64,000 bases of DNA from Verrucomicrobiota bacterium. GTDB taxonomy: Bacteria > Verrucomicrobiota > Verrucomicrobiia > Chthoniobacterales > Chthoniobacteraceae. The DNA is taken from positions 1-64,000 of the forward strand of contig JAPLTE010000129.1 in NCBI GenBank assembly GCA_026398235.1, given 5' to 3'. How positions within the stretch are numbered: the stretch's first letter is position 1; each line of letters opens with the position of its first letter. The translations under genes were made by a program, and so were the position numbers. Below, piece after piece: positions 13,084 to 58,628 of this stretch. The notes beneath the pieces are model-generated. The model ran no database searches. It saw only the letters and a program-made list of their open reading frames with translations, and was not told the origin of the DNA.

Positions 13084-13100
13084 AAGAGAGAGGAGCATCC

Positions 13101-33542: not shown

Positions 33543-33628
33543 AAGCCAATTCCAGAGTAGAAATGGCGGAAGGGGTGGGATTCGAACCCACGGTGAGATT
33601 TCTCCCACGTTCGATTTCGAGTCGAGTG
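33543..33628 (-). other. attL: duplicated 3' part of tRNA-Ser
   Basis: The CCA end, acceptor 3' strand, T arm, variable arm and anticodon region of a tRNA-Ser are present (33564-33628), but there is no 5' half, so it is not functional. It is a direct repeat of the intact tRNA at 58537-58628, and similarity continues about 20 bases past the tRNA end (AAGCCA.TTCCAGAGTA). The variable arms differ, but each still folds, which implies two tRNA-Ser lineages. This marks the chromosomal end of an integrated island. Confidence 0.85.
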
Positions 33629-38548: not shown

Positions 38549-39891
38549 ATCCCTCGATTACCATCAAGCGCCGCGAACGCGACGCCGTACTCCAATCACT
38601 GAACGCCGGTCTTGTTCCAAAGCAAGGTCTGCATCTGATCCAAGTCGGACGAAAAGCTGAGGTATCGGCTCTTCTTCAAGACCTTGACAGAATTGTGGAC
38701 GAGGGAGCCTCTTTCCGCATCGTCGTCGGGCGCTTTGGCAGCGGAAAAAGTTTCTTCCTGAACCTGGTGCGCAACCTCGCCTTCCAAAAGAAACTCGTGG
38801 TCGCCCAGGCAGACTTCAGCATGGAGAGGAGGCTTTACGCCAGCGGCGGTGAAGCGCGGGCGCTCTACAGCGAATTGATGCGCAATCTCGCCACCAAAGT
38901 GCAGCCTGATGGCGGCGCCCTCCCAAGTGTACTGGCAACATGGGTTTCGCAGGTGCAGCATAGCATCATGAGCACGGGCGGCACACCGGCCGATGTGGAC
39001 AGCCAAATTGCCGCTGACCTACGCGACTTGGAAGGCTATGTCGGTGGATTCGAGTTCGCGGAAGTCGTGCGTGTCTTTTACCGTGGCCACGTCGAAAATA
39101 ACAACGAACTGCAAGCCGCCGCTTTGCGATGGCTGCGCGGCGAATACACCACAAAAACAGAGGCGCGCAATGACCTTGGCGTGCGCCGCATCGTGGATGA
39201 CGATTCGTTCTACGACAGCCTGAAGCTGATGGCCGCGTTTGTACGGAAGGCAGGCTTTGGCGGCCTGGTGATCAATCTTGATGAAATGGTGGTGCTCTCT
39301 CATCGGCTGCCCAGTTCGCGCGCACGGCAGGCAAACTACGAGGCGCTTCTGACACTGCTCAACGATTGCTTCCAGGGCAATGCCCGTGGACTTGGCTTCC
39401 TGCTCGCCGGAACGGACGAATGCCTGGAAGACAAACGGCGCGGCCTTTTCAGCTATGAAGCATTGCGGAGCCGCCTGGCGGAAAACGCGCTGGCGCGGCA
39501 GAACGGGCTCGTGGATCTTTCCGGCCCGGTCGTGCGTTTGCAGCCGCTGACACAGGAGGACCTCTTCGTGTTGCTCAAGAACATCGCGCTCGTCCATGCG
39601 AGCGGCGATCCGACAAAGGTGATCGTATCTGACGATGGGATTGAGACCACATTGCGCAAAGCGAGTGAAACACTCGGCGCGGACTATTTCCGCACCCCTC
39701 GCGACGTGGTAAGGTCGTTCATCGGCTTACTCAACGTGCTGGAGCAAAACCCGGGGAAAACTTGGCAGGAATTGCTCGGCACGGACGTGTTCCAAAAGCC
39801 ATCGGCTCCCATGTCCACGGAGGAGGAAGTTTCAACCGGCGTTGTGGTGCCGGACGACGAGGATGGTGATCTCGCCGCTTTCAAGCTATAA
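38545..39891 (+). CDS. BrxD-like (DUF2791) P-loop ATPase
   Basis: 448 residues. Walker A is IVVGRFGSGKSFFLN (about residues 57-71); Walker B is GFGGLVINLDEMVVL; a sensor-like LLAGTDECLED follows. The family is the P-loop ATPase found as BrxD in some BREX systems. The start is the Met at 38545 inside the TerB stop; upstream codons overlap the TerB gene. It is co-transcribed with the TerB and helicase genes. No other BREX genes are present, so it belongs to a separate module. Confidence 0.82.
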   Translation: MNPSITIKRRERDAVLQSLNAGLVPKQGLHLIQVGRKAEVSALLQDLDRIVDEGASFRIVVGRFGSGKSFFLNLVRNLAFQKKLVVAQADFSMERRLYASGGEARALYSELMRNLATKVQPDGGALPSVLATWVSQVQHSIMSTGGTPADVDSQIAADLRDLEGYVGGFEFAEVVRVFYRGHVENNNELQAAALRWLRGEYTTKTEARNDLGVRRIVDDDSFYDSLKLMAAFVRKAGFGGLVINLDEMVVLSHRLPSSRARQANYEALLTLLNDCFQGNARGLGFLLAGTDECLEDKRRGLFSYEALRSRLAENALARQNGLVDLSGPVVRLQPLTQEDLFVLLKNIALVHASGDPTKVIVSDDGIETTLRKASETLGADYFRTPRDVVRSFIGLLNVLEQNPGKTWQELLGTDVFQKPSAPMSTEEEVSTGVVVPDDEDGDLAAFKL

Positions 39892-39903
39892 CCGTCCCCT
39901 CGG

Positions 39904-43243: not shown

Positions 43244-45532
43244 TCATGGGGTCCCTTTGTGGATGACATTTAAGGCTCGCACTGCAAACGTCTGTAGTTC
43301 GGTGGAAACAACCACGACAGTGTCTGCGTTTCCTGGATTTGTGTCGTGATGAAATTGACCAGCGTAATCATTGATTTCCTGCAATTCATCGACCAGGCAC
43401 TTGGCGTGGCAAATTGGTTCCGGCGGCTTCGTATCTTTTATGAAAGCAATCACTTGGCCAAACATCATATCGCGGGGCACAAGCCCTGGGAAACGCCGAT
43501 GCAGGTAACCTTCTAATGCTGGCCGAATTGCTTTGGCAATGTGGCGCAGCTCCCCGCTCCCGTTGTTTATAAAATCGGCGAGCATCCGATGGTGCCGGAA
43601 ATAGGGCGATTCGCATTCCTTATCGACATCGAAGTTATCGAAATCGCTGTATCCTCCTTGGGCAATTCGTAGTTGCAGAACGCTTATGGGAGATGAAGCG
43701 TTTTTTACCATTAGGGAGTCCCGAACATCACGGAGGAAAAAGGGATCGTGCGCTAACACAATCAACTGCTCTGCTCCGTTGAAAATTTGCCTAAGAACGG
43801 TCTGCGTGTGCTGCTTTCGGTTAAGGTCCAAGCTGCACATTGGGTCATCAATAACGACAATCCGCTGTCCCAACTTGGGATTTGCCAATGTGCTGGCAAC
43901 GAAAAATGCGAAAGCGAGTGTTCGCTTATCGCCTTCACTGAGAGCGGTTGCAAAGGAAAGAGCGGCACCATCGATCTGGATTGATTTCCCGCGAAGCGCC
44001 AAACCATATTCACTCCGGGGGGAGCCACCCCGGAAATTGGCGGCCATTTTTTCAATCGAAAACGCCGCTCCGAACTTCAATAACAGCGCGTTGATGGACT
44101 TCTCAAACTGAGAAAGGGTCGTGGACATCAATGTGTTCAACTTATCTCGCGCGGTTTTCTTCTGCCTCTCTGCTTGAACCACTTCGTTTCTCGCCGTCAC
44201 CAATTTTCCAAAAATGTCCCGTACCACTTGGGTGTGCCTTTGCTTGGATAGCTGCAATCGTAAAATTTGCCGTTGCAGGTCATCGACTTTTTCAGTCGAG
44301 AGTTTTGTCCTAAAGGCTTCGATAGCGGTTTTTGCTGCCAATATCTCTTGATTTGCCCTCTGCATTAACTCCGTCAGGTTCTGCCAAAGCCGCCCTGCGG
44401 TGCTTTTATTCTGATTGTTCCCGACTGCCACTGTGGGGCTCGCTTGTTTTTCGAGAGCCAGCCCAACCAGCAATTCCCGAAGGTCTTGGATTATCTTTGT
44501 TGCTGCTGCTTCATCAAAAATAGCGGCCTTTACGCTCACGTGATCTTCCCACCCGACCGCTTTCTCGTTTGCGTCCGAGATGCCCTTGGCGAAGTTCTCG
44601 ATGATGACCGGATCGGTTTTCGTAAGAACGCCCGGGTGTAATCGAGAGACTTTGTCTTTGAGATCCGCATACGCCGCGTTGAAGTGAGTACGATAGGCGC
44701 GAACGAGATCCAGCCCCGTCGTTACCTGCCCACAATAGGGGCAGGTTTCCCCATGGACAAAGCTTTGACCTTGGCTCAGCCAGTTTTCGACTCCTGGAGT
44801 CGCCAAAGCGGTAACATGCGCACGAACAATCCTTTCCGCGTCTTCCTGAATGTCTTCCATCGTCTTGCCAAGCAGGGAGAACAAAGCATCAACATCGAGC
44901 GAGGGCATTAGAACAGGTGCGGGCACTGGCCGCTTAGCAATGAAAGCGATACCAGCCGCGGCTGTCACTCGCGTTTGCAAAGCCGCGATCTGCGCGTCTG
45001 CATCAGGGATTTCAGGAAGTTTTTCGAAAACATCAAGTGTCGATCCCTGATGATATCCACTCAATTGCGCCGTAAGCTGTCGCACCTTATCGCCGGCTGT
45101 TTTCGCATCATTTGTGGCAATTTCTTCCTGGTTTCGGGCTGCAACAGCACTTTCACCCAATGCGAATTCAAGAAGGCTCTTTCTATGATCCGTATTCACC
45201 ACTCCTCCGGAATGGACATTTCGTTCAATGAAATCGGAATCGAAAATAAGAAGTTCCGGTCTCAGTTGCGACCATGCGCCATTTTGGAAGGTGACTCTAT
45301 GTCCACTTCCAAGTTGCAGGATAGCCTTTGGTGCCAATTTCGCATCCACGGTGGCTCTGGAACTAATTGCAGAAGTGTCTCCTGTTGCAAGCGAACGCAT
45401 CACGCTCGCCAGGGTGGTCTTCCCTCGTCCATTATCGGCGTAAATCAGCGTGGCTTTCTGGAATTTGAAGGGCTTGCCATTCGCATCATGAAGGAGCCCA
45501 ATCCCCTGAATTTGCTCGATTCTTTCTAACAT
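43244..45532 (-). CDS. RloC-like AAA ATPase with zinc hook (candidate anticodon nuclease)
   Basis: 762 residues. The Walker A motif is LIYADNGRGKTTLASV (residues about 29-44). A long coiled coil is interrupted by a zinc hook, ETCPYCGQ, with Cys264 and Cys267. The ABC signature region is ALSEGDKRTLAFAFF and Walker B is RIVVIDDPMCSLD. This is the AAA_13 architecture of RloC. The C-terminal 90 residues contain Arg670-x3-Glu674 and His728/729, which resembles the Arg-Glu-His triad of PrrC/RloC anticodon nucleases, but with longer E-to-H spacing (54). RloC cuts tRNA after DNA damage or phage attack. The family is firm, the nuclease activity is inferred. Confidence 0.72.
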   Translation of the reverse strand: MLERIEQIQGIGLLHDANGKPFKFQKATLIYADNGRGKTTLASVMRSLATGDTSAISSRATVDAKLAPKAILQLGSGHRVTFQNGAWSQLRPELLIFDSDFIERNVHSGGVVNTDHRKSLLEFALGESAVAARNQEEIATNDAKTAGDKVRQLTAQLSGYHQGSTLDVFEKLPEIPDADAQIAALQTRVTAAAGIAFIAKRPVPAPVLMPSLDVDALFSLLGKTMEDIQEDAERIVRAHVTALATPGVENWLSQGQSFVHGETCPYCGQVTTGLDLVRAYRTHFNAAYADLKDKVSRLHPGVLTKTDPVIIENFAKGISDANEKAVGWEDHVSVKAAIFDEAAATKIIQDLRELLVGLALEKQASPTVAVGNNQNKSTAGRLWQNLTELMQRANQEILAAKTAIEAFRTKLSTEKVDDLQRQILRLQLSKQRHTQVVRDIFGKLVTARNEVVQAERQKKTARDKLNTLMSTTLSQFEKSINALLLKFGAAFSIEKMAANFRGGSPRSEYGLALRGKSIQIDGAALSFATALSEGDKRTLAFAFFVASTLANPKLGQRIVVIDDPMCSLDLNRKQHTQTVLRQIFNGAEQLIVLAHDPFFLRDVRDSLMVKNASSPISVLQLRIAQGGYSDFDNFDVDKECESPYFRHHRMLADFINNGSGELRHIAKAIRPALEGYLHRRFPGLVPRDMMFGQVIAFIKDTKPPEPICHAKCLVDELQEINDYAGQFHHDTNPGNADTVVVVSTELQTFAVRALNVIHKGTP

Positions 45533-46204: not shown

Positions 46205-48064
46205 TTAGCGCCGGAGTTTCGCGTTGTAGTCGTCTACCATTTGATTAACAGCCCGATTCCGTGCCTTTTGCTGCTCAAGCAACGCATTGTAGCGGTTCAC
46301 CTTGAGGTTAAAAGCATCCACATCTAGTTGGCTGTTGCGGTTAAGATAAATGCGATCCCGCTCAATTTCGCTGGCGAGACTGTCGAGCTGGGCGGAGTAG
46401 CTTTGTGCTTGAGTCTTTGCAACCTCGATAGCCTGCCGATCACGGCTAAGTTCTGAGGTTCTGGACTGCGGAACACGATAATTGCCGGTATTGCTATTAT
46501 ACGAGGGGGTTGGTGCTGCGTAGGTTGTCGGGGCTGTGTATCTCGTGCTTGATGCCGTTCCCGATGATGAGTTGTTGTTAAACAATGACACAATCCAGAA
46601 AAAACCAATCACGCCGATAATCCAAAGGCATCCAGCATTCTCAGATTTTTGAGCGGCCAATGTGCGCCGGTCTTCTTCCAGGCGTTTCTTTATTTCTGGG
46701 TCAAGCGCAAACGAAAGTGCCAGTTTGCAGGCTTTTACCGCCGTTCTCTTGTCTTTGTGATTGTTCCACGCGTCCAAGGAAATGTTTCGGAGACTCGCAG
46801 CGAGGATGTTTGAAAATTCTGAAGCATCACTTATGCTTTCAACAAGGCTCGAAAATCTTGGAATTATATCCGCTTGGATTGAAGCGAGCCTTTGTTTTGG
46901 AGAATATGCCCCATCAGCAATGTTTTTCAGTTTCTCCAAAAGGGGCTGAAATTTCGCGAGTGCTAGGTTTCCCTGGCCGATCTCGATGTTTTTTGTTGCC
47001 CTTTCTCGAACCTCGGCTGACTGCGCAAAGTCGAGAACCTCCCTAAGCACAGCTACAAAGGTTTCGTCATCTCCGATCGCTTTCTGATACGTGACAATCC
47101 CACTTATGCAAGCGGATGCGGCGTCATCAAAAAGCTCTGTCCGCTGGTGGGCGTCCTTCTGGTAAAAGAGGTCGAAGAGGGGCCGATGGAGTTTGACTTC
47201 TTGGATAAGCCGTCTGATGGCAGTCAGCATTTCCTTGGGATCCGACTTTTTCGTATCTTCCAGGCAGAGGCGAATCACCTCGACCTTTGGTGTCAGCACC
47301 AAATCAAAAACCTTCCGGGCTTGTGCAGCGTCCGGCTCAAACTCCGAAATGAGCCCTATGTGCATTCTGGAGGGATCAAGCCTGCCCCTTTCCGCGAATT
47401 TTAGCGCGGCCTCAGCGTTGATCCTTGTCATCGCCTGTCTCAGCGAGGAAGCTAGTCTCCGCGCCCAGCCGGTTGTAATTCTGGGATCATCCAAGGTGCG
47501 GATGCGGTTCCTTACCGTATCCCAGATCCGGTCATCCGAAGTCAGTTTTGTCCACCGGGATAAGGATTCCCTCCAATAATTTTTGATTTTGGTTTCCCTC
47601 TCCGCATTAACCTCTGCATTTAGTTGGTAATGTGTCCAATCGTGCGCGATCAAGTGGAACATGACCGCAAGGTTATGTGTGGCGATAAAGCCTTCAGCCG
47701 TATCGCTTTCCCTTTCGAGCCAGATTTCGTAAGCTTTGTTTTGCTCCCCCCGTTCCAATGCTAGCATTGCGGGATCACCAGAAGGATGTGAACCATTCGC
47801 GGGCCAAAACCAGAAAAAGCCGTAAGTCAGACGCTGTTCAGGTTCCTTCATGCACCGGGACGCATCTCGAATTTGATCCACGGTGGGAGCCGGGTCGAGG
47901 GCGAAGGCGAACTGTTGCTGGTTGGATTCCCCCAAGTCAGCCAGAATTTTGAGCTTCTCCGTAAGCCGGGCGATCTCCTTTACTGAGGCGTCAACGGGAA
48001 GGCCCGTTATGCGAAACGGATTTTGCCGATAGAGATCGAGGTTCGAAATGGCGCTAAGTGGCAT
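46205..48064 (-). CDS. Membrane-anchored J-domain-like protein
   Basis: 619 residues. The N-terminal block NPFRITGLPVDASVKEIARL, then FALDPAPTVDQIRDASRCM and FFWFWP, is shared with the gene at 52296-53615 and looks like a divergent J domain. A helical repeat region follows (about 100-470), then one membrane segment (CLWIIGVIGFFWIVSLF, about 490), a Ser/Thr/Tyr-rich linker and a C-terminal coiled coil (about 540-615). The usual HPD tripeptide is not evident. It is the last gene of the Hsp70 cluster, 31 bp after the Clp-N gene. It could tether the Hsp70 machine to the membrane. Confidence 0.6.
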   Translation of the reverse strand: MPLSAISNLDLYRQNPFRITGLPVDASVKEIARLTEKLKILADLGESNQQQFAFALDPAPTVDQIRDASRCMKEPEQRLTYGFFWFWPANGSHPSGDPAMLALERGEQNKAYEIWLERESDTAEGFIATHNLAVMFHLIAHDWTHYQLNAEVNAERETKIKNYWRESLSRWTKLTSDDRIWDTVRNRIRTLDDPRITTGWARRLASSLRQAMTRINAEAALKFAERGRLDPSRMHIGLISEFEPDAAQARKVFDLVLTPKVEVIRLCLEDTKKSDPKEMLTAIRRLIQEVKLHRPLFDLFYQKDAHQRTELFDDAASACISGIVTYQKAIGDDETFVAVLREVLDFAQSAEVRERATKNIEIGQGNLALAKFQPLLEKLKNIADGAYSPKQRLASIQADIIPRFSSLVESISDASEFSNILAASLRNISLDAWNNHKDKRTAVKACKLALSFALDPEIKKRLEEDRRTLAAQKSENAGCLWIIGVIGFFWIVSLFNNNSSSGTASSTRYTAPTTYAAPTPSYNSNTGNYRVPQSRTSELSRDRQAIEVAKTQAQSYSAQLDSLASEIERDRIYLNRNSQLDVDAFNLKVNRYNALLEQQKARNRAVNQMVDDYNAKLRR

Positions 48065-48095
48065 GGGTTTGGACGGGGCGACCCCGGCGTGTTGT

Positions 48096-48665
48096 TCAGT
48101 TCAATTGGTTATGCCGAGGATTGTCTCCTGCTCGGGGGTTCCTACCACAACCGAAGAGGGCCTCATGTTTGCTCTCCCTCTCCAACCCCTTTCCGTCTAG
48201 GCGGAGTTCGACCAACACCTGCTCTCTGGAATCATCGTCCTCTTCCATAATGGCATATAGCAAATGGATGGGGAAGACCGGGCTTTCCGTGAGTTCGGCC
48301 CACCGTTCGGCGTTCCTAAAGACAGCCTTCGCCGACTCGCTCCGGTGATACCGTTTGGTCTCCGGTGCCCGAAGTGCGAGGTTCATGTGCAGTTTCGCCC
48401 TAAGACTGCGGCGGAACTGCTTGGCGTCAAGATTGACCGCAGCGAACACTCTCCTAAGTCGCCTAGTTTCCTTGAATAATTCCTCAAGCAGGTCGTCGCT
48501 AGCGGGCGAGATTTTGTTGGCGACCTTCGGCAAATCGAAATCGACAACCTTGCAAAGTCCAAGCAACAGGTGTGTAGGCTCAATCACGGGCGAGTTCAGG
48601 TTTCGGGCTTCGACCGCGGCGACCCTCCAGACCAGAATGAGACTTTCAGAGTGCCTCGTCGTCAT
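48096..48665 (-). CDS. Stand-alone double Clp-N domain protein
   Basis: 189 residues. Two Clp-N repeats are visible: SESLILVWRVAAVEARNL with IEPTHLLLGLCKVVD, and RSESAKAVFRNAERWAELTE with FPIHLLYAIMEEDD. There is no AAA+ ATPase part. Clp-N domains bind substrates or adaptors for ClpA/B/C unfoldases. Here it may be an adaptor that passes clients of the Hsp70 machine to a protease or disaggregase, or a decoy. Its start overlaps the TPR gene's stop by four bases. Confidence 0.65.
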   Translation of the reverse strand: MTTRHSESLILVWRVAAVEARNLNSPVIEPTHLLLGLCKVVDFDLPKVANKISPASDDLLEELFKETRRLRRVFAAVNLDAKQFRRSLRAKLHMNLALRAPETKRYHRSESAKAVFRNAERWAELTESPVFPIHLLYAIMEEDDDSREQVLVELRLDGKGLERESKHEALFGCGRNPRAGDNPRHNQLN

Positions 48666-49300
48666 GGCTTAGCATCGATTGCAGGTTTTTCTTCCGTGGG
48701 CGGAGTCGGCGGTTGCGATCCAGCCGGAATAGGAGCCGAAGTTTGCGCCATTTCCGGAGGGATTTCGGCAGGGGCAGCCAGCACAGATTCCGGATTTATT
48801 GGCTCGGAGGGCTTCGTCTTGCGCAAATTCCTTATGGATTTGGTGCAGGCGACCAACCGGTTCCCAACCCTCCCGACAATAGCGACCACCCGGCACCAGG
48901 CCCACTTGGCAAAGACGACGAAGTGGTGCCCCACCCATCTAGCGAGTTTCGCCAGTCTTTTCAGATTGGCTAATGGACTCACCAAATCCTGGAAATGCTC
49001 TATGGCTTTGATTTTCACGAGCGCTTCTAAATATGCCGAATTGCCGGGATCCAGCCTTAGCGCATCTTGCCAAAGCCTTTTGGCCTGGCTCAGGTCACGC
49101 CGCTTGGCCGCGATCCTTGCCAATAAGTCAAGGTCTCGTGGATTAGCAGGGACTCCCCTTCGGCGCAGCAGGGCTTCTGCTTCAAGCAAATGGCCAGATC
49201 TGGCAAGCAACGATGCATGGGCGTAGCGGGAATTTGAGAAGTGCGCCTCCAAAACCTCTCGGATTTGTGCCACTGCAAGACGCTTGGTTTCTGGATTCAT
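48662..49300 (-). CDS. TPR protein with basic membrane-proximal region
   Basis: 212 residues. Two or three TPR-like helix pairs (ASLLARSGHLLEAEALLRRRG, DLSQAKRLWQDALRLDPGN) span residues about 10-105. An aromatic, basic stretch (HHFVVFAKWAWCRVVAIVGRVG) could associate with the membrane. The tail is Pro/Ala-rich. The start at 49300 is chosen because it follows the Hsp70 stop by four bases; the frame is open further upstream inside the Hsp70 gene. It is likely a co-chaperone scaffold, by context only. Confidence 0.6.
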   Translation of the reverse strand: MNPETKRLAVAQIREVLEAHFSNSRYAHASLLARSGHLLEAEALLRRRGVPANPRDLDLLARIAAKRRDLSQAKRLWQDALRLDPGNSAYLEALVKIKAIEHFQDLVSPLANLKRLAKLARWVGHHFVVFAKWAWCRVVAIVGRVGNRLVACTKSIRNLRKTKPSEPINPESVLAAPAEIPPEMAQTSAPIPAGSQPPTPPTEEKPAIDAKP

Positions 49301-49304
49301 GGCG

Positions 49305-51767
49305 CTATTGCACTCCCGATACAAATCCGCGTTGCGCTTCACGTTCTTCCGCTGGGAGTAAATCCCAGAGCTGACGCACCACATTCTGCAATCCGACTGC
49401 ATTGTTGTTCGCCATGAAATTTTGACCTTGAGAGAACAAATGTGCCGCACGGTTTTGATCCGTCAATTTAGCACGTTCTTTCTCCATGTATTGGAAACGA
49501 TACACCCAATACTCTGGCTGAGCATTTGTGATTTCATAGTAAAGCCTCCACACGGATTCCAACTTACTTCTCATCCGCTCAGACTGGCGTTCTTTGATGA
49601 TTTGGTTGATTTCAGTCACAAGGGATGTATGTCTTTCCCGTTGATCTGCCGATCCATACGTTCGCACAACCTTTTCCAAACTGGCCATCGCCTCCTGCGC
49701 TTCGCAAACGAGCGATGGCCATTCCAGCGAATCAGCAACCTCGTCCAATTTGATTTTAAATTCCAAAAGGCGGGTCTCGCACTTTCGAGTCTCGTTGGCC
49801 GCAATGGCTCGTTCGATTTCTTGCAGCAGTGGTGACTCTTCGATCTCGCGAACTTTTTCATCAACACCTTGAGCATTTGTGTTTCGGGCCTTAGCTGCAA
49901 GTTCCCGGAAGCGTTTCATTTCGGTATCCAAATCCTGTTTGAGTACAAGAGCTTTTACCGTCTCATATTTCGAATCAAACTTCTCAGTAAATTCCTCGTC
50001 GAGAAGCGGAACATAAGCTTTCAGAGTGATGATTCGGTTCGCATCCATGCTCAACGTGACCTCCACATCACTACCGGCTGGTAAATCTCGCCTTATATTA
50101 TTTCCCTTTATTTCAAGGTATCCTATGAATTGATTTCGGTCAGCCTTACCATTTTCTCCTTCAACGACCGGAATTCTAACGAAGTCCCCGCTTTGGCCCT
50201 GCCGGATTAAATGTGCCGTTCGGTAGTCTTTAGTCTCTTTGCAAGGAAGACCTCGGCCCTTTTGAAAAAGACGGTCATAATTGTTAGTGCTCAGCGCGAT
50301 GCCGATTGAGTTAGGGAGCGGTTGCTCATCAAGAACGCCACCAATAAAAATGGTATAGGTCAGGCTGTCCGGGGAGGTCTTTTGTCTCCGACCCTCTGGA
50401 TCAAACATTTCGATGGAATAGAGATTTCGGACTCCGCGCTCTGCATAAAGATTCGCAACAAAGACTCCATCGGGGCGCAAAGAAATCTTACCACTTCTCC
50501 ACTGAATCGCTTGATTGACTAATTCCAATGTAAAGTCGGTGAAGTCCTGAATTTCGGGGCTTGAAACTTTCCCGCCGATGGTCGGAGTGTCATCGATTCC
50601 AACAGGCTTGTATTTGAGATCAATGGCAAACTCGCCTGCGGCGACGGGTTGCTCCCTGTTGAGTTGGAGGCGTTGCGTTCCGGCAAAAACGGCAGCTCCA
50701 AGAGCAACGACTGTCATTGGGTCCATGCTGAAATCCAAAGGCATGCTGAGTTTGCGGCTTAACATCTCGCGGAAATAGCGCGCCTTGGTTGGTCCGCCGA
50801 CCAGAATTACTTTGGAAATGGCTTCCTTAGACAAATGGATTTCATTTAAGACCCGCATGCATATATCAACCGAACGCTGGATGATAGGTTCAGAAATACG
50901 AACAACTTCCGCCTGGGTCAGTTCGCATTCCAATTCAATATCTTCACCCTTTGAGTCTGTAAATCCGCCTAGCGCTAAGTGCGTCCGATCGGACCTGGAA
51001 AGTTCGATTTTTGCATCCTCTACAGCGTGTTTGATTTTGATAAATTCCTTTTCCCAGCGCTCGTTTCCCCGATTGAAATCCTTCAACTCATACTGTGCGA
51101 GCAATTGTGGAACAATAATCTGATCAACAATCGCCCAATCGATATCGGAACCTCCAAGGAAATTATCACCCCCATGGTTTGCCACATGAATAGTTCCATC
51201 TTCTGCCTTGATCACTGCTGCATCAAAAGTCCCACCTCCAAAATCATACACCAACCAGTAAGCTCCCTCTTCATCTTTCTGAAATCCGTAAGCCAAGGCT
51301 GCTGCCACTGGTTCCTGTAGCAGTGGGCTTTGCTTGAAACCGGCTAATTGGGCCGCCTTCATGGTGGCGTTGCACTGGGGGAGTTGGAATGCAGCTGGCA
51401 CCGTGATAACGATGGCATCTATCGCCTCTCCGGTTTTTTCCTGTGCTTGATCCCGCAGGGCTTTAAGAACCTCCGCTGAAAGTTCTTCCGGTTTGCGGCG
51501 CATTCCACTGCTTTGAAATGAATAGACGAAATCGTCTCCCATGTTCCGCTTGAATTCAATGTAGGCGTCTTTGGGTTTTGCTTCACGGCTGCTCCTTGCT
51601 CGCAGCCCAACCCGCACGGTGCCCATTTTGTCAATGCCAACAGCGGACGAGGTAATATCGAAATCATCTGGATTTTTGATGATTTCCGGACGAACGCCGT
51701 TGAGGACTGCGATGGCACTATTTGTCGTGCCGAGGTCTATTCCAAAGTCGATGGTAGTTCTGGTCAT
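49305..51767 (-). CDS. Long Hsp70 (DnaK-like) chaperone
   Basis: 820 residues, about 180 longer than DnaK. The nucleotide-binding domain has DFGIDLGTTNSAIAVLNG (phosphate 1), YDFGGGTFDAAVI (about 174-186) and VILVGGPTKARYFREML. The substrate-binding beta domain follows (about 390-600). The C-terminus (600-820) is helical, Glu/Lys/Arg-rich and unlike DnaK's; it lacks the EEVD-like tail. Other Hsp70 genes for housekeeping should exist elsewhere. Immediately upstream is a GrpE-like gene and, further on, a J-like gene and a kinase, so this is the core of a dedicated chaperone cluster. Confidence 0.9.
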   Translation of the reverse strand: MTRTTIDFGIDLGTTNSAIAVLNGVRPEIIKNPDDFDITSSAVGIDKMGTVRVGLRARSSREAKPKDAYIEFKRNMGDDFVYSFQSSGMRRKPEELSAEVLKALRDQAQEKTGEAIDAIVITVPAAFQLPQCNATMKAAQLAGFKQSPLLQEPVAAALAYGFQKDEEGAYWLVYDFGGGTFDAAVIKAEDGTIHVANHGGDNFLGGSDIDWAIVDQIIVPQLLAQYELKDFNRGNERWEKEFIKIKHAVEDAKIELSRSDRTHLALGGFTDSKGEDIELECELTQAEVVRISEPIIQRSVDICMRVLNEIHLSKEAISKVILVGGPTKARYFREMLSRKLSMPLDFSMDPMTVVALGAAVFAGTQRLQLNREQPVAAGEFAIDLKYKPVGIDDTPTIGGKVSSPEIQDFTDFTLELVNQAIQWRSGKISLRPDGVFVANLYAERGVRNLYSIEMFDPEGRRQKTSPDSLTYTIFIGGVLDEQPLPNSIGIALSTNNYDRLFQKGRGLPCKETKDYRTAHLIRQGQSGDFVRIPVVEGENGKADRNQFIGYLEIKGNNIRRDLPAGSDVEVTLSMDANRIITLKAYVPLLDEEFTEKFDSKYETVKALVLKQDLDTEMKRFRELAAKARNTNAQGVDEKVREIEESPLLQEIERAIAANETRKCETRLLEFKIKLDEVADSLEWPSLVCEAQEAMASLEKVVRTYGSADQRERHTSLVTEINQIIKERQSERMRSKLESVWRLYYEITNAQPEYWVYRFQYMEKERAKLTDQNRAAHLFSQGQNFMANNNAVGLQNVVRQLWDLLPAEEREAQRGFVSGVQ

Positions 51768-51779
51768 GATTTTTGGGTG

Positions 51780-52271
51780 TTAGAGATCAGTTTTTTCTGC
51801 AAGCGGGATTTCAAGAATAATCTCACCGGGTTGCAGGATCTTGGAATTGTAACGTATGGTTGGCTTGAAGGTTTCCTTGACACGAGCCCGTGAGATGCCA
51901 GCGGTCGGTTCCGCTGCGATCACTTTTAGAAACATCCCCTCGTCATAGGGGTCGCCGGTATGACCTTTAATTGTAAACCCCAGCTCCTTCAGGCCGCGCA
52001 GGATTCCATCCACGGGCTTGGCAACTCCTTGGAATTCTTCTTTCACCTCGCCCGAAAATTTGTCAATCATTTTCGTCATCGCCCGCCATGCGTTATTGGC
52101 GATCTTCAACATACCTTGCTGCCACTCTGCGCTACATTCCACGGGGTGAATCTGAGGCAAAGATATTTCTATGCCCTCTGAAACGGCGCCGTGCAATATC
52201 CGTATTATAGCTTCGCTTGGCTTTCTTTCGTCGGGTAGTTCCGCATGGGGGATTTTGAATGGATCACTCAT
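51780..52271 (-). CDS. GrpE-like nucleotide-exchange factor
   Basis: 163 residues. The C-terminal half has the shape of the GrpE beta-wing: GDPYDEGMFLKVIAAEPTA, then TFKPTIRYNSKILQPGEIIL, where GrpE has FDPxxHEAV and LRPAxVxV. The N-terminal half contains helices (LKIANNAWRAMTKMIDKF) but is shorter than GrpE's coiled coil. It sits 12 bp upstream of the Hsp70 gene. Sequence similarity is faint, so context carries much of the call. Confidence 0.55.
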   Translation of the reverse strand: MSDPFKIPHAELPDERKPSEAIIRILHGAVSEGIEISLPQIHPVECSAEWQQGMLKIANNAWRAMTKMIDKFSGEVKEEFQGVAKPVDGILRGLKELGFTIKGHTGDPYDEGMFLKVIAAEPTAGISRARVKETFKPTIRYNSKILQPGEIILEIPLAEKTDL

Positions 52272-52295
52272 AGAATGTGCAAGTTGGCGAAAGGC

Positions 52296-53615
52296 TTATT
52301 TTGTTGTTCTGTTTAGAATTTTGTTTTTCATTCGCGTCAGCCAAGACGGTTTTTTGATGGGTAACACCTCGACTGTGTTCATTGGCCTTGCGCTAGAGGC
52401 GGCTTTCTTCCGTTGAGCCTGCTTTTCCTGCAGACTAATCTCGATGTTCTTTTTGCCGACGCCGATGGCCTCGGCTATTCGGTTGCCTAAAGCCTCGTCC
52501 GTGCTCAGTGGTTGGAGCCTTCTGAGTAAATCGACAAATACCTCATTCTTCCCAGTTTTGCGCTGGAAAAGAATCGCGCAATCGGTGCAAACGGAAACGG
52601 TTTCGTTAAGCTGCTCCCACCCAACATAGTCTGTTTCGTCGAAGAAGATTTCGACCACTTCGACCAGAAACAAAGTAGGTGCGACCAGACTGCCTGCGAG
52701 TTGATCTGCCTTTTCCGGGGATTGGCGGGCCTCGTTACGAACCCTCAGAGTGGACTCCTGCAACCGTCTCTTTGCTGAGGCCAGCACCAAATCAACGGCA
52801 ATTCGCATCACCTCGGCGCTCTTTACAAAGTCCCGCAGCAGATGCACGTGCATCTTTGCCAAATCTAGCCTACCCTGATCAATATAGTTCAGCGCCAATT
52901 CGGCATGCATCTTCGCCAAGGCAAGAGGCAAGGCGTGGCGCATCCGCTGGCTAAAACCGGTTGGAAGCCGTGGATCGTCAATTTGGTGGATGCGAGCCGA
53001 AATCTTTTCCCACAGTGCATCATCTTGCATGAGATGGTGCCACCGCTTCATGGCTTGGCGCCACGTTTCATCAAGGATGCCTTGCTGAGAAGGGGTGATC
53101 TCCGTTCCCTCAGTGTAATGTGCCCGCTCAAGCGCCGTTAGATGCCACACGACAGCAACGTTGTGCATTGCTGTGGTGCCCGAGGCCGGATTCGACTCGC
53201 GGGCTGTCCAAATTTTTGACGCCGTATCGCAGTCTCCACTCAAAAGAGCATGAATGGCAGGGTCAGCCCGACTGTTTCCAAATTCCTCGGGCCAAAACCA
53301 GAAAAATTCGTCAATGATTCGCGTTTCGGGATCGGAAAATCTTTGGATGGTTTGGCGGATTTGATCCACCGTCGGTGGCGGTCTCAGCGCAAATACTGAA
53401 TTGTGGCAACATTCACCTTGCCCCAGTTCCTCCATTATTCTGAGTCTGTCAGCATGCTTGTGGATGTCGCGGGTGGTTGCATCCACGGCCAAACCGGTGA
53501 TGCGAAACGCGTTGTTGCGGAACAAGGCGGTCGTGGCTGATTCCATCAAAGCTTTGCACTCCGGATCCTTCCAAGAAGGTTTTGTTTCGTCACGACTATC
53601 GCTGCGATCTTCCAT
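52296..53615 (-). CDS. J-domain-like protein (soluble)
   Basis: 439 residues. The block NNAFRITGLAVDATTRDIHKH, then FALRPPPTVDQIRQTIQRF and EFFWFWPEEF, matches the N-terminus of the protein at 46205-48064. A helical region (about 120-430) follows, with no membrane segment, and the tail is basic (KKPSWLTRMKNKILNRTTK). It ends 24 bp before the GrpE-like gene. With its paralogue it gives the cluster one soluble and one membrane J-like partner. The 30 residues before the block may be a genuine extension or reflect a later start. Confidence 0.6.
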   Translation of the reverse strand: MEDRSDSRDETKPSWKDPECKALMESATTALFRNNAFRITGLAVDATTRDIHKHADRLRIMEELGQGECCHNSVFALRPPPTVDQIRQTIQRFSDPETRIIDEFFWFWPEEFGNSRADPAIHALLSGDCDTASKIWTARESNPASGTTAMHNVAVVWHLTALERAHYTEGTEITPSQQGILDETWRQAMKRWHHLMQDDALWEKISARIHQIDDPRLPTGFSQRMRHALPLALAKMHAELALNYIDQGRLDLAKMHVHLLRDFVKSAEVMRIAVDLVLASAKRRLQESTLRVRNEARQSPEKADQLAGSLVAPTLFLVEVVEIFFDETDYVGWEQLNETVSVCTDCAILFQRKTGKNEVFVDLLRRLQPLSTDEALGNRIAEAIGVGKKNIEISLQEKQAQRKKAASSARPMNTVEVLPIKKPSWLTRMKNKILNRTTK

Positions 53616-53626
53616 GATTATTGGGA

Positions 53627-54733
53627 CTACATGCTGATACCACAGCGCCAGAGTTTCACTTGGTGACTGTATTTGCCTCTAAGTTCCGGAGATTTATTGA
53701 AGGCTTCCTCAAGCGCATCGGCCGCATCGGCCAGACGCCCATCTTTCTTCAAGGCGAAAGCCTTGTTGACCATCTGCCTTGCTTCGTCTTCGTCCGGCCC
53801 GGAGTGTTTGCCGCCCAAAGCTGCCTTCGACAACTGGCTGTTGGAGGTGGATTTTATCGTCCTCGCCTTGTCGTCCTCTCCTGGCTTCCAAGCCTCCAAT
53901 GCGTCGAGCATTTCCTTTGCCGAGGGAAAGCGGTCGCCCGGCTTTTTCTTAAGCGCGCGGGAAAGAATCGCGTCGAGCGATTTGTTGGCATCCGGGTTGA
54001 TTTGAGAGGGGGGCGTGAAGTTGCCTTCAAACAATCCTGATGATCCCCAGCCAAGGTCATCCGGCAATCGGAATGGGAACTCGTCGGTGAGCATCAGATA
54101 CATCGTTGTGCCCACCGCCCAAACGTCCGCGGAACACGAGTCGCCCTTGGTGTCCGAAAAGGCTTCCGGGGGCTTGAACGCGAGGGTGCCGGCCGCAGTC
54201 GCCAACAAAGTTAGCGGATTGACCTTTTTGGCGAGTCCGAAATCGCTGACACGCGCGCGCAGCCCGTCCGCTTCATAGCCGACCAGGATATTCTGCGGTT
54301 TGATGTCACGATGGATAACTGGAGGGCTCTCTTTATGGGCGACCGAAAGGCCGCGGCAAACCTGTTTCATGAGGTTGACCGTGGTTGCCACGGGGACAAG
54401 TTCCCGCCCGTGGGATCGCCAAAACTTGTCCAAACTGCCTCCGGGAACATTCTCCATCGTAAAGTATCCGCAAAGGCCGTGGGGAGTATCGAGGACGTTG
54501 GCGTCAAAAACCCGCACTATGTTCGGGTGGCCAATTTGGGACAGCATGATGGCCTCGCCCAGCATTTCCTCGATTTGCTCCACCGTCATCCCAACTCTCT
54601 TGAAAATTTTCATCGCCTGCCGCCCAAGAAACCGGTGGCGGACACGGTACACTTCAGCGAACGCCCCTTCTCCAAGAAGGCGCTCAACCTCGTAGGTGTC
54701 GCGGATTAACTGACCGGGTTGCAGAAGAGCCAT
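53627..54733 (-). CDS. Ser/Thr protein kinase with C-terminal TPR-like tail
   Basis: 368 residues. Complete Hanks-type kinase: Gly loop GEGAFAEVYRV (21-31), catalytic Lys42 in AMKIFK, HRDIKPQNIL (141-150), and DFGLAKK (164-170). All key residues are present, so it should be active. The C-terminal third has a low-complexity linker and a helix pair (MVNKAFALKKDGRLADAADALEEAF) that looks like a TPR. No membrane segment follows. Its own promoter may lie just upstream. It probably phosphorylates chaperone or sigma partners in this cluster; that is inference. Confidence 0.9.
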   Translation of the reverse strand: MALLQPGQLIRDTYEVERLLGEGAFAEVYRVRHRFLGRQAMKIFKRVGMTVEQIEEMLGEAIMLSQIGHPNIVRVFDANVLDTPHGLCGYFTMENVPGGSLDKFWRSHGRELVPVATTVNLMKQVCRGLSVAHKESPPVIHRDIKPQNILVGYEADGLRARVSDFGLAKKVNPLTLLATAAGTLAFKPPEAFSDTKGDSCSADVWAVGTTMYLMLTDEFPFRLPDDLGWGSSGLFEGNFTPPSQINPDANKSLDAILSRALKKKPGDRFPSAKEMLDALEAWKPGEDDKARTIKSTSNSQLSKAALGGKHSGPDEDEARQMVNKAFALKKDGRLADAADALEEAFNKSPELRGKYSHQVKLWRCGISM

Positions 54734-54753
54734 AGTTCTGTGTTGGTATCAGG

Positions 54754-54782
54754 GGAATACAAATGAGGAGAAAAATCGTCAA
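54754..54782 (-). promoter_or_regulatory. Possible promoter of the kinase gene
   Basis: TTGACG (54782-54777) and TATTCC (54759-54754) are 17 bases apart, 21 bases before the kinase start. The -10 is weak. A TTGACGAT sequence also occurs at 57461-57454. Confidence 0.35.
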
Positions 54783-54793
54783 CCAGCACTCAT

Positions 54794-54860
54794 TTTAGCT
54801 CCGTTCAAACGAAAACATCCAGAATGATTTAGTGTCCAAATTTGGAACGATGGAGCTAAA
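54794..54860. repeat. Imperfect inverted repeat upstream of the kinase
   Basis: TTTAGCTCC (54794-54802) followed by GTTC, and GAAC followed by GGAGCTAAA (54852-54860), are about 45 bases apart. It could be an operator or a folded leader. It lies in the 193-bp gap between the kinase and SH3 genes, the largest gap in the cluster. Confidence 0.5.
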
Positions 54861-54926
54861 GCGATGAAGACGCCCCCAAAAAACCATACTGCAAGACAAA
54901 ACCTACCGCCCGATCCGCTTCCCATC

Positions 54927-56504
54927 TTAAGGAACCTTGGCATCCTGGATTAAACTTTTAAGTTCCCGATTGCCGGAATCGAACTCGTGAGAAAGCCTTT
55001 CCCACTCCGCTTTTTTTACTGAAGCGGTTTTTATCTGCGCGCATCTTGTTTTAAGGAAATTGAGCCGTGCCGCTAGTTTTTCTATAGGCGCATACTGTTC
55101 TTGCCTAATTTGATAGCTCTTTCCCTCCCATGAAAATGGGATCAGGGAAACACCCATTCTTTGAGTGGAATCAGGTAAAAGATGAAGGAAATTCGCGTGG
55201 ATCCAACCCTCGCTATCGCCAATTAAAATTCGCACCCATCGGTAACCACCAACTGTTTTCGAACCCCCAGGGATCCAAAAAACTTCGGTCCCAGGCTGCA
55301 ACCGCGCAAGGATTTGTGCATCACTGTTTGCTTCGTTGCGCACATTCAGAAAATCTCCTGGTGGCAAATTAACTACTATGCATCGGTAATACGAAAGAGG
55401 AATCGGAGTGGGTGTCTGGATTACTTTCGGGATCACCCGCAAATCGTTCGGATCATCGTTCGCCCATTCGTATCCCGGTGCTGGTTCCCTCTTTCCGTTG
55501 GCATTCAATACGACATGTGGCGGAAGAGGAGTCGGAGTGGGTGTCGGCGTTACTTTCGGGATTACCCGCAAATCGTTCGGATCATCGTTCGCCCATTGGT
55601 ATCCCGGTGCTGCTTCCCTCTTCCCGTTGGCATTCAATACGACATGTGGCGGAAGAGGAGTCGGAGTGGGTGTCGGCGTTACTTTCGGGATCACCCGCAA
55701 ATCGTTTGGACCATCGCTTGCCCATTGGTATCCCGGCGCTGGCTCCCAATTTCCGTTGGCATTTAATATGACATGTGGCGGAAGAGGAGTCGGAGTGGGT
55801 GCCGGCGTTGATTGAGGAGCAAGCGCTGATTGCGAATTAGTGGCATCCTGGGATGTGGTCGAATACGCTGTTTGCGTGGTCGTTTGTGTTGGCTGCACGT
55901 TTGATGACAGCGATGCGATCAATCCCACGATGCCGATTCCGATAATTGAAATTACAAAAAATATCAGGCAACCGTTTGGTCCATCACTTGCAGGGGGTGT
56001 TTTTGATCCAGCGGGTGAACTCGTTGGCTTGTCGTTACTCTGGGCTTGGGCGTTCTTGTAGCTGGACACCTGAGAAGGATCAATGATGTCGATCCCCATC
56101 TCTTTTAGGCGGTAAAAGATGGCTTGCATCTCATCCGGCTCGTTGATGTTGTCCGGGAAGACCGTATTGAGGTCGTCGAACATGACATAACCTCGTTTCT
56201 TGGCCAATGTGCTCAACACCCCGAGTTTTTCGACCATCTCGGGCGAGTCAATACTGAAGGCGCCATCGCCGGAATTTGAGCTAGGAGCAGAGTGTCTATT
56301 CTGAGAATTGCTTGGATTTGCTGGCGAGTCAGGATGGGGTGGTGGCTCGCTATGTCTCTGGGGCGAAGAGGTTATCTCCTCAGCAACTGGCGGCTCCTTT
56401 ATAGCAGAGACTTTTCGACCTGCCGGAATGGGCGGCGGCAGCTCGATCTCCAATCGAGATTGTGCCGTGTTCGCATTTTCTTGCTTGTTTGGGGCGCCGT
56501 CCAT
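54927..56504 (-). CDS. Membrane protein with 43-residue repeats and a bacterial SH3 domain
   Basis: 525 residues. Cytoplasmic N-terminal part (1-190), Pro/Ser-rich with a conserved helical patch (EKLGVLSTLAKKRGYVMFDD). One membrane segment (CLIFFVISIIGIGIVGLIASL) lies near 195-215. Three tandem 43-residue repeats (129-bp period, about 55440-55800) follow; each has TPTPTPLPPHVVLNANG and DDPNDLRVIPKV. Then comes an SH3 domain with FLNVRNEANSDAQILARLQPG and DSEGWIHANFL, probably periplasmic and wall-binding. The C-terminus is helical. It may sense envelope state and signal to the adjacent kinase. Confidence 0.75.
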   Translation of the reverse strand: MDGAPNKQENANTAQSRLEIELPPPIPAGRKVSAIKEPPVAEEITSSPQRHSEPPPHPDSPANPSNSQNRHSAPSSNSGDGAFSIDSPEMVEKLGVLSTLAKKRGYVMFDDLNTVFPDNINEPDEMQAIFYRLKEMGIDIIDPSQVSSYKNAQAQSNDKPTSSPAGSKTPPASDGPNGCLIFFVISIIGIGIVGLIASLSSNVQPTQTTTQTAYSTTSQDATNSQSALAPQSTPAPTPTPLPPHVILNANGNWEPAPGYQWASDGPNDLRVIPKVTPTPTPTPLPPHVVLNANGKREAAPGYQWANDDPNDLRVIPKVTPTPTPTPLPPHVVLNANGKREPAPGYEWANDDPNDLRVIPKVIQTPTPIPLSYYRCIVVNLPPGDFLNVRNEANSDAQILARLQPGTEVFWIPGGSKTVGGYRWVRILIGDSEGWIHANFLHLLPDSTQRMGVSLIPFSWEGKSYQIRQEQYAPIEKLAARLNFLKTRCAQIKTASVKKAEWERLSHEFDSGNRELKSLIQDAKVP

Positions 56505-56558
56505 GCTGTGGGGTCAATCGGTCAAGTGCAGATTTTTCTGATGGTGGACAAGAGATAG

Positions 56559-56639
56559 TTAAGCGAACGTCCCTTCTTCAAGAAGGCGTTTGACCTTGTA
56601 GGTGTCGCGGATTAACTGGCCAGGTTGCAGAAGAGGCAT
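56559..56639 (-). pseudogene. Remnant copy of the kinase gene's 5' end
   Basis: A 26-codon frame begins MPLLQPGQLIRDTYKVKRLL and ends EEGTFA-stop; the kinase begins MALLQPGQLIRDTYEVERLL. The match covers the first 26 codons and then is lost. It lies between the two-TM gene and the SH3 gene, in the same orientation, evidence of an old duplication in the cluster. Confidence 0.8.
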
Positions 56640-56662
56640 GGTGCGGTGGATTCCATGGGAGG

Positions 56663-57301
56663 CTAGAAGAGGAAAGGATTCGGTTTCTTCTTTGGGCGTA
56701 AATACTCAATAAACATAGCGGGCACCAACCAGACAAAGATTCCAATGATGACAGCGACTCCTAGGGACAGAAGAAGGTTTTTCGAAGTGAACTCCCAGCG
56801 AAACTGAAACCACAGCCATCCGGTCAACCCAAAACCCACCAAAAAGGAAATCAGTGCGGCCCATTTTTGTGCGGTGTTTGCTATCTTTACATCCGCATTG
56901 TAGGCGTCTTCCTCTGCTTTAAAAGCAATCAATCTGCGGTGAAGTTCTTTGCTTTGCTCCTCGGGCTTTATAGGGGGAGAGATGTGGAAGCGTAGCGCTG
57001 GACTCGGTTGTGTATACTCGGCACGAATTTCAGCCCCAATATCTCGACCTATGAGCATCATAGCTAAGCGAGTCCAGTCAATCGTCATGAGATCAATTTG
57101 ATCGACGAGACCCATGAGGTCATCCATTGCTCCCTGCGAGGTGTAGACTTGGATAAGCATTTCCGCGAGCTTATCGGCAGCATCGAAGTCGGTTAGACCT
57201 TGAGCTTTTAGCTCCGCAGCCTTTTTATCCCAAAAGTCACGAATGTTATGATTCGACTTGATGTAATTGAAAACGAGGGACTCTGTGCGTGGCAGTGGCA
57301 T
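56663..57301 (-). CDS. Two-TM protein of unknown function
   Basis: 212 residues. A helical cytoplasmic domain (1-145) begins MPLPRTESLVFNYIKSNHN. Two membrane segments (about 147-165, WAALISFLVGFGLTGWLWF, and 176-200, LLSLGVAVIIGIFVWLVP) and a basic tail (RPKKKPNPFLF) follow. No family is recognised. Its start is two bases after the stop of a small duplicated frame (57304-57381), so the two may be translationally coupled. By position it belongs to the sigma/SH3/kinase part of the cluster. Confidence 0.6.
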   Translation of the reverse strand: MPLPRTESLVFNYIKSNHNIRDFWDKKAAELKAQGLTDFDAADKLAEMLIQVYTSQGAMDDLMGLVDQIDLMTIDWTRLAMMLIGRDIGAEIRAEYTQPSPALRFHISPPIKPEEQSKELHRRLIAFKAEEDAYNADVKIANTAQKWAALISFLVGFGLTGWLWFQFRWEFTSKNLLLSLGVAVIIGIFVWLVPAMFIEYLRPKKKPNPFLF

Positions 57302-57303
57302 GG

Positions 57304-57381
57304 TTAACGTCTAAATTTGTTGATCTCCAATTGAGGTCGTGCCGTGTTTGCCTTTTCTTGCTGGTTGGGGTCACCGTCCAT
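57304..57381 (-). pseudogene. Remnant copy of the SH3 gene's 5' end
   Basis: A 25-codon frame starts MDGDPNQQEKANTARPQLEI, matching MDGAPNKQENANTAQSRLEI of the SH3 gene, and then stops. It may be only a remnant or may act as an upstream leader frame for the two-TM gene. Confidence 0.75.
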
Positions 57382-57466
57382 GCTGAAGGTGTATCGGTCA
57401 GTTTTGAATTTTATTGGGAGCGGTCTCTTCAAGCACTACAAAGAACCGGGATAATCGTCAACCGGG

Positions 57467-58078
57467 TCATCCCGCAGACTGTTTTTCCCTAAACGACCGC
57501 AGGAATCCGCTCGAATCGAGCCCTTGGTATCCCAGTTGGGAGAGGCGGTTCCGAAGCTTTTCCATAGCGGGCTTGGAAATCTTATGAACCGCCTGCTTAG
57601 TGATGCCCATTTTTTCTGCGATTTCCTGAAGGCTGTTTCCGTCCTTAATCCGTTCGATTACGAGACGTTCCCGAGGTGAAAGCACAAGGAAGACTTCTTC
57701 GAGAACTCCCTTCGATTCCATTCTCCGCACGTTGCGCACGACATTGGCTTGTCGATCTGCCACCCGCGCGATAGGTGCCTCAGCCGAGGATGTCTCGGAA
57801 AACAATGGGCACGAAGAGTCGTCCAATGACTTCGGAAACATTTTCGCAAGCCTCAACTGCTTATGGTAAAGCGTGTTGAGGGCGTTGCGAATCGCCCTGG
57901 CCGCATAGGGCTCAAAGTCCCCCTTCGCCGGATCGAAACCGTCCGCAGCACGGGTCAGCGCCTCATACGCATCAGAAAGCACCTCACCCAAGGTGGCCCC
58001 AGGTATATTGAGGTAATCGACCGCAATAACGTGGGCCAATCCGAGGTGCTCTTCGATCAGGTTGAGGCACTTTTCCAT
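57467..58078 (-). CDS. Sigma-70-like RNA polymerase sigma factor
   Basis: 203 residues. Region 2 is recognisable in SDAYEALTRAADGFDPAKGD followed by FEPYAARAIRNALN. Region 4 is a helix-turn-helix (LSPRERLVIERIKDGNSLQE then IAEKMGITKQAVHKISKPAM). No region 1.1 or 3 is seen, so it is close to group 3/4 or phage-type factors. The start at 58078 is chosen because upstream codons to 58255 overlap the repeat region and lack homology. As first gene of the cluster it may direct transcription of the chaperone genes. Nothing like an anti-sigma factor is recognisable, although the two-TM protein is a candidate. Confidence 0.78.
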   Translation of the reverse strand: MEKCLNLIEEHLGLAHVIAVDYLNIPGATLGEVLSDAYEALTRAADGFDPAKGDFEPYAARAIRNALNTLYHKQLRLAKMFPKSLDDSSCPLFSETSSAEAPIARVADRQANVVRNVRRMESKGVLEEVFLVLSPRERLVIERIKDGNSLQEIAEKMGITKQAVHKISKPAMEKLRNRLSQLGYQGLDSSGFLRSFREKQSAG

Positions 58079-58117
58079 ACTGTAGGCGCATTTTGCCAGT
58101 AGGACTCTGTAATTTCG

Positions 58118-58534
58118 ATGGAAAAAACAAACAACTTGGCAAACGCCTCCGAAGTTTTGCTTCAGAACTCCACGTATATCCCGCCGCAGGTGAGCGTTCG
58201 AACTTTTCTTGTATCTACTATCATGCGCAAGAGATCGCTCTCTTTGGTTCAGCACCAGGTCACCCTCTGTCGTGCCTGTCGCGAAACGGCGCTCCCGTCA
58301 ATTCGAGTTTTTTACGTATCTAATGTCATGAGCAAAAAATCGCTTCCTTTGCATGTGGGCGTAGCTCCTATGCCGTGTTTTACAGACATTCGAGTATCTA
58401 CCCAAAATCTACCACTTTTTACCGTTCCCTATGGGTCCGATACAGTCTCCGAACAAAAAACCATCAAAAGGCACTCGATTCTGGGTCGAGTGTCATTGGC
58501 TGCCGGGCCTGGAGATAAGCCATTTCCAGAGTAA
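58118..58534 (+). CDS. Possible small protein with internal repeats at the island end
   Basis: A 138-codon frame divergent from the sigma gene. It contains three related segments (SVRTFLVSTIMRKRSLSL, SIRVFYVSNVMSKKSLPL and a short DIRVSTQ) whose spacings of 105 and 87 bases are multiples of three, which suggests coding repeats. The nucleotide repeats at 58195-58245 and 58300-58353 could instead be recombinase or regulatory sites. There is no Shine-Dalgarno and no known family. Its stop lies within the attachment repeat. Confidence 0.3.
   Translation: MEKTNNLANASEVLLQNSTYIPPQVSVRTFLVSTIMRKRSLSLVQHQVTLCRACRETALPSIRVFYVSNVMSKKSLPLHVGVAPMPCFTDIRVSTQNLPLFTVPYGSDTVSEQKTIKRHSILGRVSLAAGPGDKPFPE
58195..58353. 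repeat. Two imperfect ~50-bp direct repeats near the right island end
   Basis: Repeat 1 (TTCGAACTTTTCTTGTATCT...) and repeat 2 (TTCGAGTTTTTTACGTATCT...) each continue with TCATG.GCAA.A.ATCGCT..CTTTG. A third partial copy is at about 58388-58402. The 12-mer TCTACCACTTTT occurs at 58408-58419 and at 33664-33675, near both island ends in the same orientation, as expected of recombinase arm sites. Confidence 0.5.
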
Positions 58535-58536
58535 AA

Positions 58537-58628
58537 TGGCGGAAGGGGTGGGATTCGAACCCACGGTGAGTTTAACCCCACGTTCGATTTCGAGTCGAGT
58601 GCCTTAAACCAAACTCAGCCACCCTTCC
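58537..58628 (-). tRNA. tRNA-Ser (anticodon CGA)
   Basis: 92 bases including an encoded CCA. The acceptor stem is GGAAGGG / CCCTTCC, the anticodon loop is CTCGAAA, the long variable arm pairs GTGGG with CTCAC (one wobble), and the T arm contains GTGGGTTCGAATCCCAC. The first anticodon-stem pair is a C-A mismatch. Its 3' end points into the island and is duplicated at 33564-33628, so it is the integration target; the 3' half may have been supplied by the island. Confidence 0.93.

Follow-up and report, generated by a model that had tools for sequence, protein, structure and literature searches.

Seven tightly packed genes of a Verrucomicrobiota bacterium form one operon, which probably encodes a self-contained, client-dedicated Hsp70 machine that would run apart from the cell's own DnaK, DnaJ and GrpE, with a linked kinase and with the usual J-domain trigger replaced. 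The operon was found in a window of 64,000 nucleotides (the whole stretch of DNA analysed) from a genome of 2.58 Mb in 144 contigs. Judged by the window's Hsp70, the nearest named relatives are Verrucomicrobia. Housekeeping DnaK, DnaJ and GrpE are encoded elsewhere in this genome. A previous sequence-only reading had proposed that the Hsp70, its J-like and GrpE-like partners and the kinase make up a dedicated machine; the joint travel of the genes and a GrpE fold largely bear this out, whereas the J fold is moderately supported and the kinase is not universal.

Organization of the locus

All ten minus-strand open reading frames reported between 46205 and 58078 are present. Seven of them (54733-46205, minus strand), with intergenic distances of -4 to 31 bp, constitute the operon. 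They encode a soluble Ser/Thr kinase (KIN, 53627-54733; Pfam Pkinase, 2.7e-41), a J-like protein (J1, 52296-53615), a GrpE-like protein (51780-52271), an Hsp70 of 820 aa (49305-51767), a TPR protein (48662-49300, ATG at 49300; Pfam, hydropathy), a Clp_N-only protein (48096-48665), whose gene overlaps the TPR gene by 4 bp, and a second J-like protein (J2, 46205-48064), which is 32% identical to J1. The small gaps and overlaps described for the whole run of ten genes hold from the kinase gene to J2 but not further upstream, where the minus-strand genes for a sigma-70 family factor (57467-58255, with a GTG start at 58255 or an ATG at 58078; TIGR02937, 5.8e-23), a two-TM protein of no family (56663-57301; profile search, hydropathy) and an SH3 protein (54927-56504; Pfam, repeats, hydropathy) lie 158-193 bp apart.

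Pfam and NCBIfam profiles recovered the expected sigma-70 regions 2 and 4, SH3, kinase, Hsp70, TPR (as one weak repeat) and Clp_N (a weak match, yet above the cut-off), whereas the J-like proteins gave no Pfam J match.

Distribution of the core genes

Using the C-terminal region of the Hsp70 as query, we found 26 loci in Verrucomicrobia, Kiritimatiellae and Actinobacteria, that is, 27 with the window added. The Hsp70 gene is accompanied by a J-like gene at 25/27 loci, a GrpE-like gene at 25/27 and a TPR gene at 22/27. An orthologous kinase was found at 6/27 (the window and 5 of the 26 relatives) and Clp_N at 4/27. The J-like, GrpE-like, Hsp70 and TPR genes co-occur in Verrucomicrobia/Kiritimatiellae as well as in Actinobacteria, in an order common to two phyla. 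J-GrpE-Hsp70-TPR is the commonest arrangement; in two loci of Actinomadura (L031 and L033) the J-like gene comes last. Since L024 starts within the Hsp70 gene and L025 has an HscB-like gene before it, both loci are weak evidence on absence. The latter gene (L025, 529-1053) encodes an HscB-like J protein with HPDRF, immediately ahead of the family Hsp70, on a contig that may be chimeric.

A survey of 195 genomes of the phylum found the J-like gene and the GrpE-like gene in the same four genomes, side by side in each, a co-occurrence beyond chance. A second sample comprised 297 genomes from the class of Pseudofrankia and was searched with a J-like alignment that includes actinobacterial members. 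Seven genomes besides Pseudofrankia matched, and the regions around the best places were examined. Five of these seven further actinobacterial loci (L139-L143) carry kinase-J-GrpE-Hsp70-TPR in that order, the kinase being next to the module. The remaining two, L144 and L145, carry J-GrpE-Hsp70, with neither a kinase nor a TPR gene reaching the cut-offs; in L144 the stretch begins within the Hsp70 gene, which leaves a TPR gene beyond judgement, and L145 has sequence on both sides. The kinase is missing beside the module in Opitutaceae and in several actinobacteria, L145 included, indicating that it is not always required. Moreover, three J-like genes (L147, L148 and L149) have no recognised module partner within the stretch examined, which shows that J-like proteins can exist outside the module. 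Pseudofrankia also carries another J-like gene, a divergent one, close to a divergent Hsp70 (L146). A plasmid search with J1 gave no match.

Overall, the core genes usually travel together, as the proposal of a joint machine had demanded, but Clp_N proved to be only an occasional accessory. Conservation extends to fewer than the ten genes first put forward: the sigma, two-TM and SH3 genes, claimed as members, adjoin the module only in the window and have no match at the other 26 loci.

Genomic island and defence neighbours

The operon lies within a 25-kb tRNA-Ser island; an island had been proposed, and it is larger than had been stated. Its att-like direct repeats align over 84 bases with one gap and 5 mismatches and include the 3' part of tRNA-Ser(CGA). 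One repeat is a partial copy of the tRNA-Ser 3' end (33545-33628), a place where no tRNA was found; the other (58519-58601) lies at the tRNA-Ser(CGA) gene that is the integration site (58537-58628, minus strand). Of the island genes scanned, none was recognisable as an integrase. The stretch 36149-42087 encodes Shango-like phage-defence proteins (SngA-like, 2.8e-57; SngB-like, 8.8e-166; SngC-like, 7e-237), and 43244-45532, adjoining the Hsp70 operon, encodes an AAA_13 ATPase with a CPYCGQ motif (PADLOC PDC-S06, 1e-65). An ion channel gene also lies between the repeats.

The sharing of one island with Shango-like SngA/B/C and a PDC-S06-like ATPase makes defence a live rival in the window genome: the kinase would sense infection, and the Hsp70 set would control an effector or build a protective complex. 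Likewise, a restriction-enzyme-like gene lies near the Chthoniobacter flavus locus (L016), a Schlafen-AlbA gene lies within the cluster of L037, and the GAP1-N2 conflict systems already published include genes for Hsp70, GrpE and DnaJ, according to passages of PMC7159879. We nevertheless consider an anti-phage or conflict function unlikely. There is no obvious effector within the operon, and the majority of verrucomicrobial relatives carry the four genes as an isolated unit that has few neighbours in common. The kinase does match PADLOC kinase models, which any generic kinase would be expected to do, but none of the other operon genes scanned, a set covering all but J2, matched a PADLOC model of note.

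Genes upstream of the operon

The SH3 protein combines a sigma-70 region 1.1 (56040-56228; Pfam, E = 1.7e-11), which the sequence-only reading lacked, with a TM segment (55914-55970) and an SH3 domain (55185-55352), and its gene contains three repeats of 129 bp (55392-55809). This region 1.1 shows 51% identity over 100 residues to a 720-aa open reading frame that by inspection reads as the genome's RpoD. The neighbouring sigma factor has regions 2 and 4 (Pfam) and is devoid of region 1.1; a membrane protein that carries region 1.1 beside a sigma factor that does not is intriguing. The gap between the two-TM and SH3 genes holds a decayed 5' copy of KIN (56542-56648, minus strand; 107-nt repeat, 82%, and translation), and the gap between the sigma and two-TM genes holds a decayed 5' copy of the SH3 gene (57322-57385, minus strand; 64-nt repeat, 86%, and translation). 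Upstream of the sigma gene, there is a weaker resemblance to the start of that gene (39/54 positions).

The SH3 membrane protein and the sigma factor might thus be pictured as a sensor-regulator switching on the Hsp70 operon, a ten-gene arrangement in keeping with the adjacency on one strand, the decayed copies of both the SH3 gene and KIN, and the split of region 1.1 between neighbours. It is nonetheless improbable, given that the three genes are unmatched at the other loci and separated by gaps of 158-193 bp. In addition, a promoter scan based on the sigma-70 consensus, which is blind to other promoter types, returned fewer sites than shuffled sequences and none on the minus strand. What ties the SH3 and sigma genes to the operon is adjacency and the common decayed copies only.

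Hsp70 and its J-like and GrpE-like partners

The Hsp70 consists of a nucleotide-binding domain (NBD, 50658-51767), an Ig-like insert (50328-50633), an SBD-beta (approximately 49968-50312) and a long lid (49305-49967). Its membership of the Hsp70 superfamily, defined by an actin-like NBD with catalytic K70, E171 and T199, is evident from Pfam (HSP70, 1e-77) and from these residues in 25/25 family members. The hhalign alignment to the genome's own DnaK spans the NBD, the SBD-beta and a portion of the lid; an additional segment separates the NBD from the SBD-beta. The DnaK-type hydrophobic interdomain linker (DVLLLD) is not aligned, and an insert of ~110 residues occupies its site; by Pfam, this insert resembles carboxypeptidase-regulatory/Ig-like domains in 8 of 21 members (best 8.7e-5). 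In a tree, 31 family Hsp70s form one group (100/100) separate from DnaK; the placement of other paralogues is unsure because of long branches.

We compared 25 family Hsp70s with 22 DnaKs. R167 is lost in 24/25 family members, and N170 is replaced by Q and Q378 by F in 25/25, whereas K70, E171, T199, D8 and T11 are retained in 25/25; all of these residues are kept in 22/22 DnaKs. As described in parts of PMC8215388, the HPD aspartate binds R167 and Q378 in the DnaK-DnaJ structure and the HPD histidine binds the linker; the same parts state that J domains with a substituted H or D in HPD failed to stimulate Hsp70 in all systems examined. A redundant DnaK paralogue on the canonical cycle with the housekeeping DnaJ and GrpE is very unlikely: these cochaperones are encoded in the genome and the catalytic residues are intact, but changes at R167, at Q378 and in the linker region run through the family, and nearly all loci encode GrpE-like and J-like partners together with the Hsp70.

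J1 has a J-like N-terminal domain (53286-53528, roughly residues 30-110), and the rest of the protein is an all-helical TPR-like scaffold. In its AF2 model (pLDDT 89.4), the predicted helices of the J-like domain come in an order matching the J fold. The alignment of this domain to DnaJ J domains by hhalign is collinear, with a probability of 72% and a score of 29.4 (maximum of 60 column shuffles, 15.1); it should be noted that an earlier comparison with 20 members gave 25% only, and that 72% was obtained after realignment with a different member set. The best Foldseek matches of the whole J1 model are helical repeats, none significant, and are uninformative for the J-like domain. Pfam, applied to 28 J-like proteins, returned scattered single matches and no J-domain match. 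Moreover, HPD is absent from the J-domain place (helices II/III) in 28/28; two members have HPD or HPE further upstream, ahead of the first helix. This absence means that the J-like proteins are not J proteins of the ordinary kind, although the profile comparison moderately supports a kinship of their domain to J domains. J2 has a predicted TM helix at residues 477-495 (hydropathy 2.26).

The GrpE-like protein aligns to canonical GrpE by hhalign with a probability of 96% and an E-value of 1.3e-9, cross and shuffled controls giving ≤1%. Its AF2 model (pLDDT 88.7) shows long helices and a beta-wing, and the first 12 PDB matches of this model by Foldseek are all GrpE. The modelled protein thus has the GrpE fold and not the unrelated one that would have spoken against the machine; it is a putative nucleotide exchange factor for the partner Hsp70. 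The J-like and GrpE-like families are both without Pfam or NCBIfam match.

Kinase, TPR and Clp_N proteins

KIN has the P-loop, the VAIK-type lysine, HRDIKPQN and DFG that characterize Ser/Thr protein kinases. Its orthologues share the P-loop region, HRDI(K/T)P(Q/Y)N and DFG, the catalytic-loop K being replaced by T in several actinobacterial orthologues. A C-terminal tail motif of KIN, AADxxEEAFN...LWRxGI, was also found in several orthologues.

Beside several actinobacterial loci lies a second kinase with TPRs, divergently oriented. Upstream of the kinase in L140-L142 is a conserved protein of 235-249 aa, which in L140 gave a weak match to sigma-70 region 4; its N-terminus looked FHA-like by eye, a resemblance that Pfam did not confirm (L140 and L142 scanned). 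A conserved multi-TM-like protein of 468-489 aa is encoded downstream of the TPR gene at the same three loci.

By hydropathy, the TPR proteins have a strongly hydrophobic segment, a predicted TM helix, in 21/21 relatives, and a borderline one in the window. Clp_N orthologues were found in L016 (C. flavus; Pfam, 3e-7), L037 and L038. In L037, a Schlafen-AlbA/RecG-like gene (12613-14232) lies between the TPR and Clp_N genes.

Proposed mechanism

From sequence and models, the operon most likely encodes a membrane-tethered, kinase-linked, client-dedicated Hsp70 machine. The J-like helical scaffold would gather clients at the membrane, where the anchor would be the TPR-TM protein or, in the window, more likely J2. 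The Hsp70 would bind and release clients by way of its ATPase, and the GrpE-like protein would swap the nucleotide. The usual trigger, in which HPD acts on R167/Q378 and the linker, would be replaced, with HPD-less J-like proteins, lost receiving residues and an Ig-like domain at the linker. The state of the machine would probably be set by the cognate kinase, which would phosphorylate one of the components; at loci that have Clp_N proteins, these may pass clients on.

Neither the J-like proteins nor the Hsp70s retain their side of the HPD contact, and this suggests that the Hsp70 is operated in a manner not yet described. More tentatively, the ATPase might be switched through the linker Ig-like domain by a kinase-controlled J-like scaffold, instead of by HPD J proteins. 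Both sides of this contact being lost while the ATPase residues and a GrpE-like protein are kept, the family offers a natural experiment on rewired Hsp70 allostery; if the reading is true, an Hsp70 would obey a different allosteric trigger. That a kinase gene is repeatedly linked to the module suggests that the chaperone is under direct control by signalling, and the J-like and GrpE-like families gain a testable function.

Comparison with known systems

We found no description of this system in the open-access literature, covered mainly as titles and abstracts, and we provisionally regard the system as undescribed. In mitochondria, Pam16-type proteins are HPD-less J-like proteins that work beside an Hsp70, and Pam16 pairs with an active J protein. 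The likeness is one of description alone and, unlike in the case of Pam16, the operon encodes no active J protein.

The HSP70/GrpE theme of the GAP1-N2 systems resembles the operon in its HSP70 and GrpE genes and its DnaJ- or TPR-bearing partner, whereas a kinase is found in another theme, as far as portions of PMC7159879 describe them. In contrast to these systems, neither a GTPase nor an FNIII gene could be identified in the window operon, and its J-like proteins have no Pfam DnaJ match; Pfam recognised no TRAFAC GTPase among the ten window genes, and neighbours at other loci were scanned in part.

HscC of E. coli, with DjlB/DjlC, is also a specialised Hsp70 with its own J-type partners and a suggested membrane link. 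HscC has 550-580 aa and is thought to be GrpE-independent, according to sections of PMC8215388, whereas the window Hsp70 has 820 aa, a co-encoded GrpE-like protein and HPD-less partners. Finally, the system resembles DnaK-DnaJ-GrpE in the intact ATPase residues of its Hsp70, its putative GrpE-fold exchange factor and its probably J-related partner, but differs from it in being HPD-less, in the replacement of R167 and Q378, and in having an Ig-like domain at the linker, its own kinase and a TPR-TM partner.
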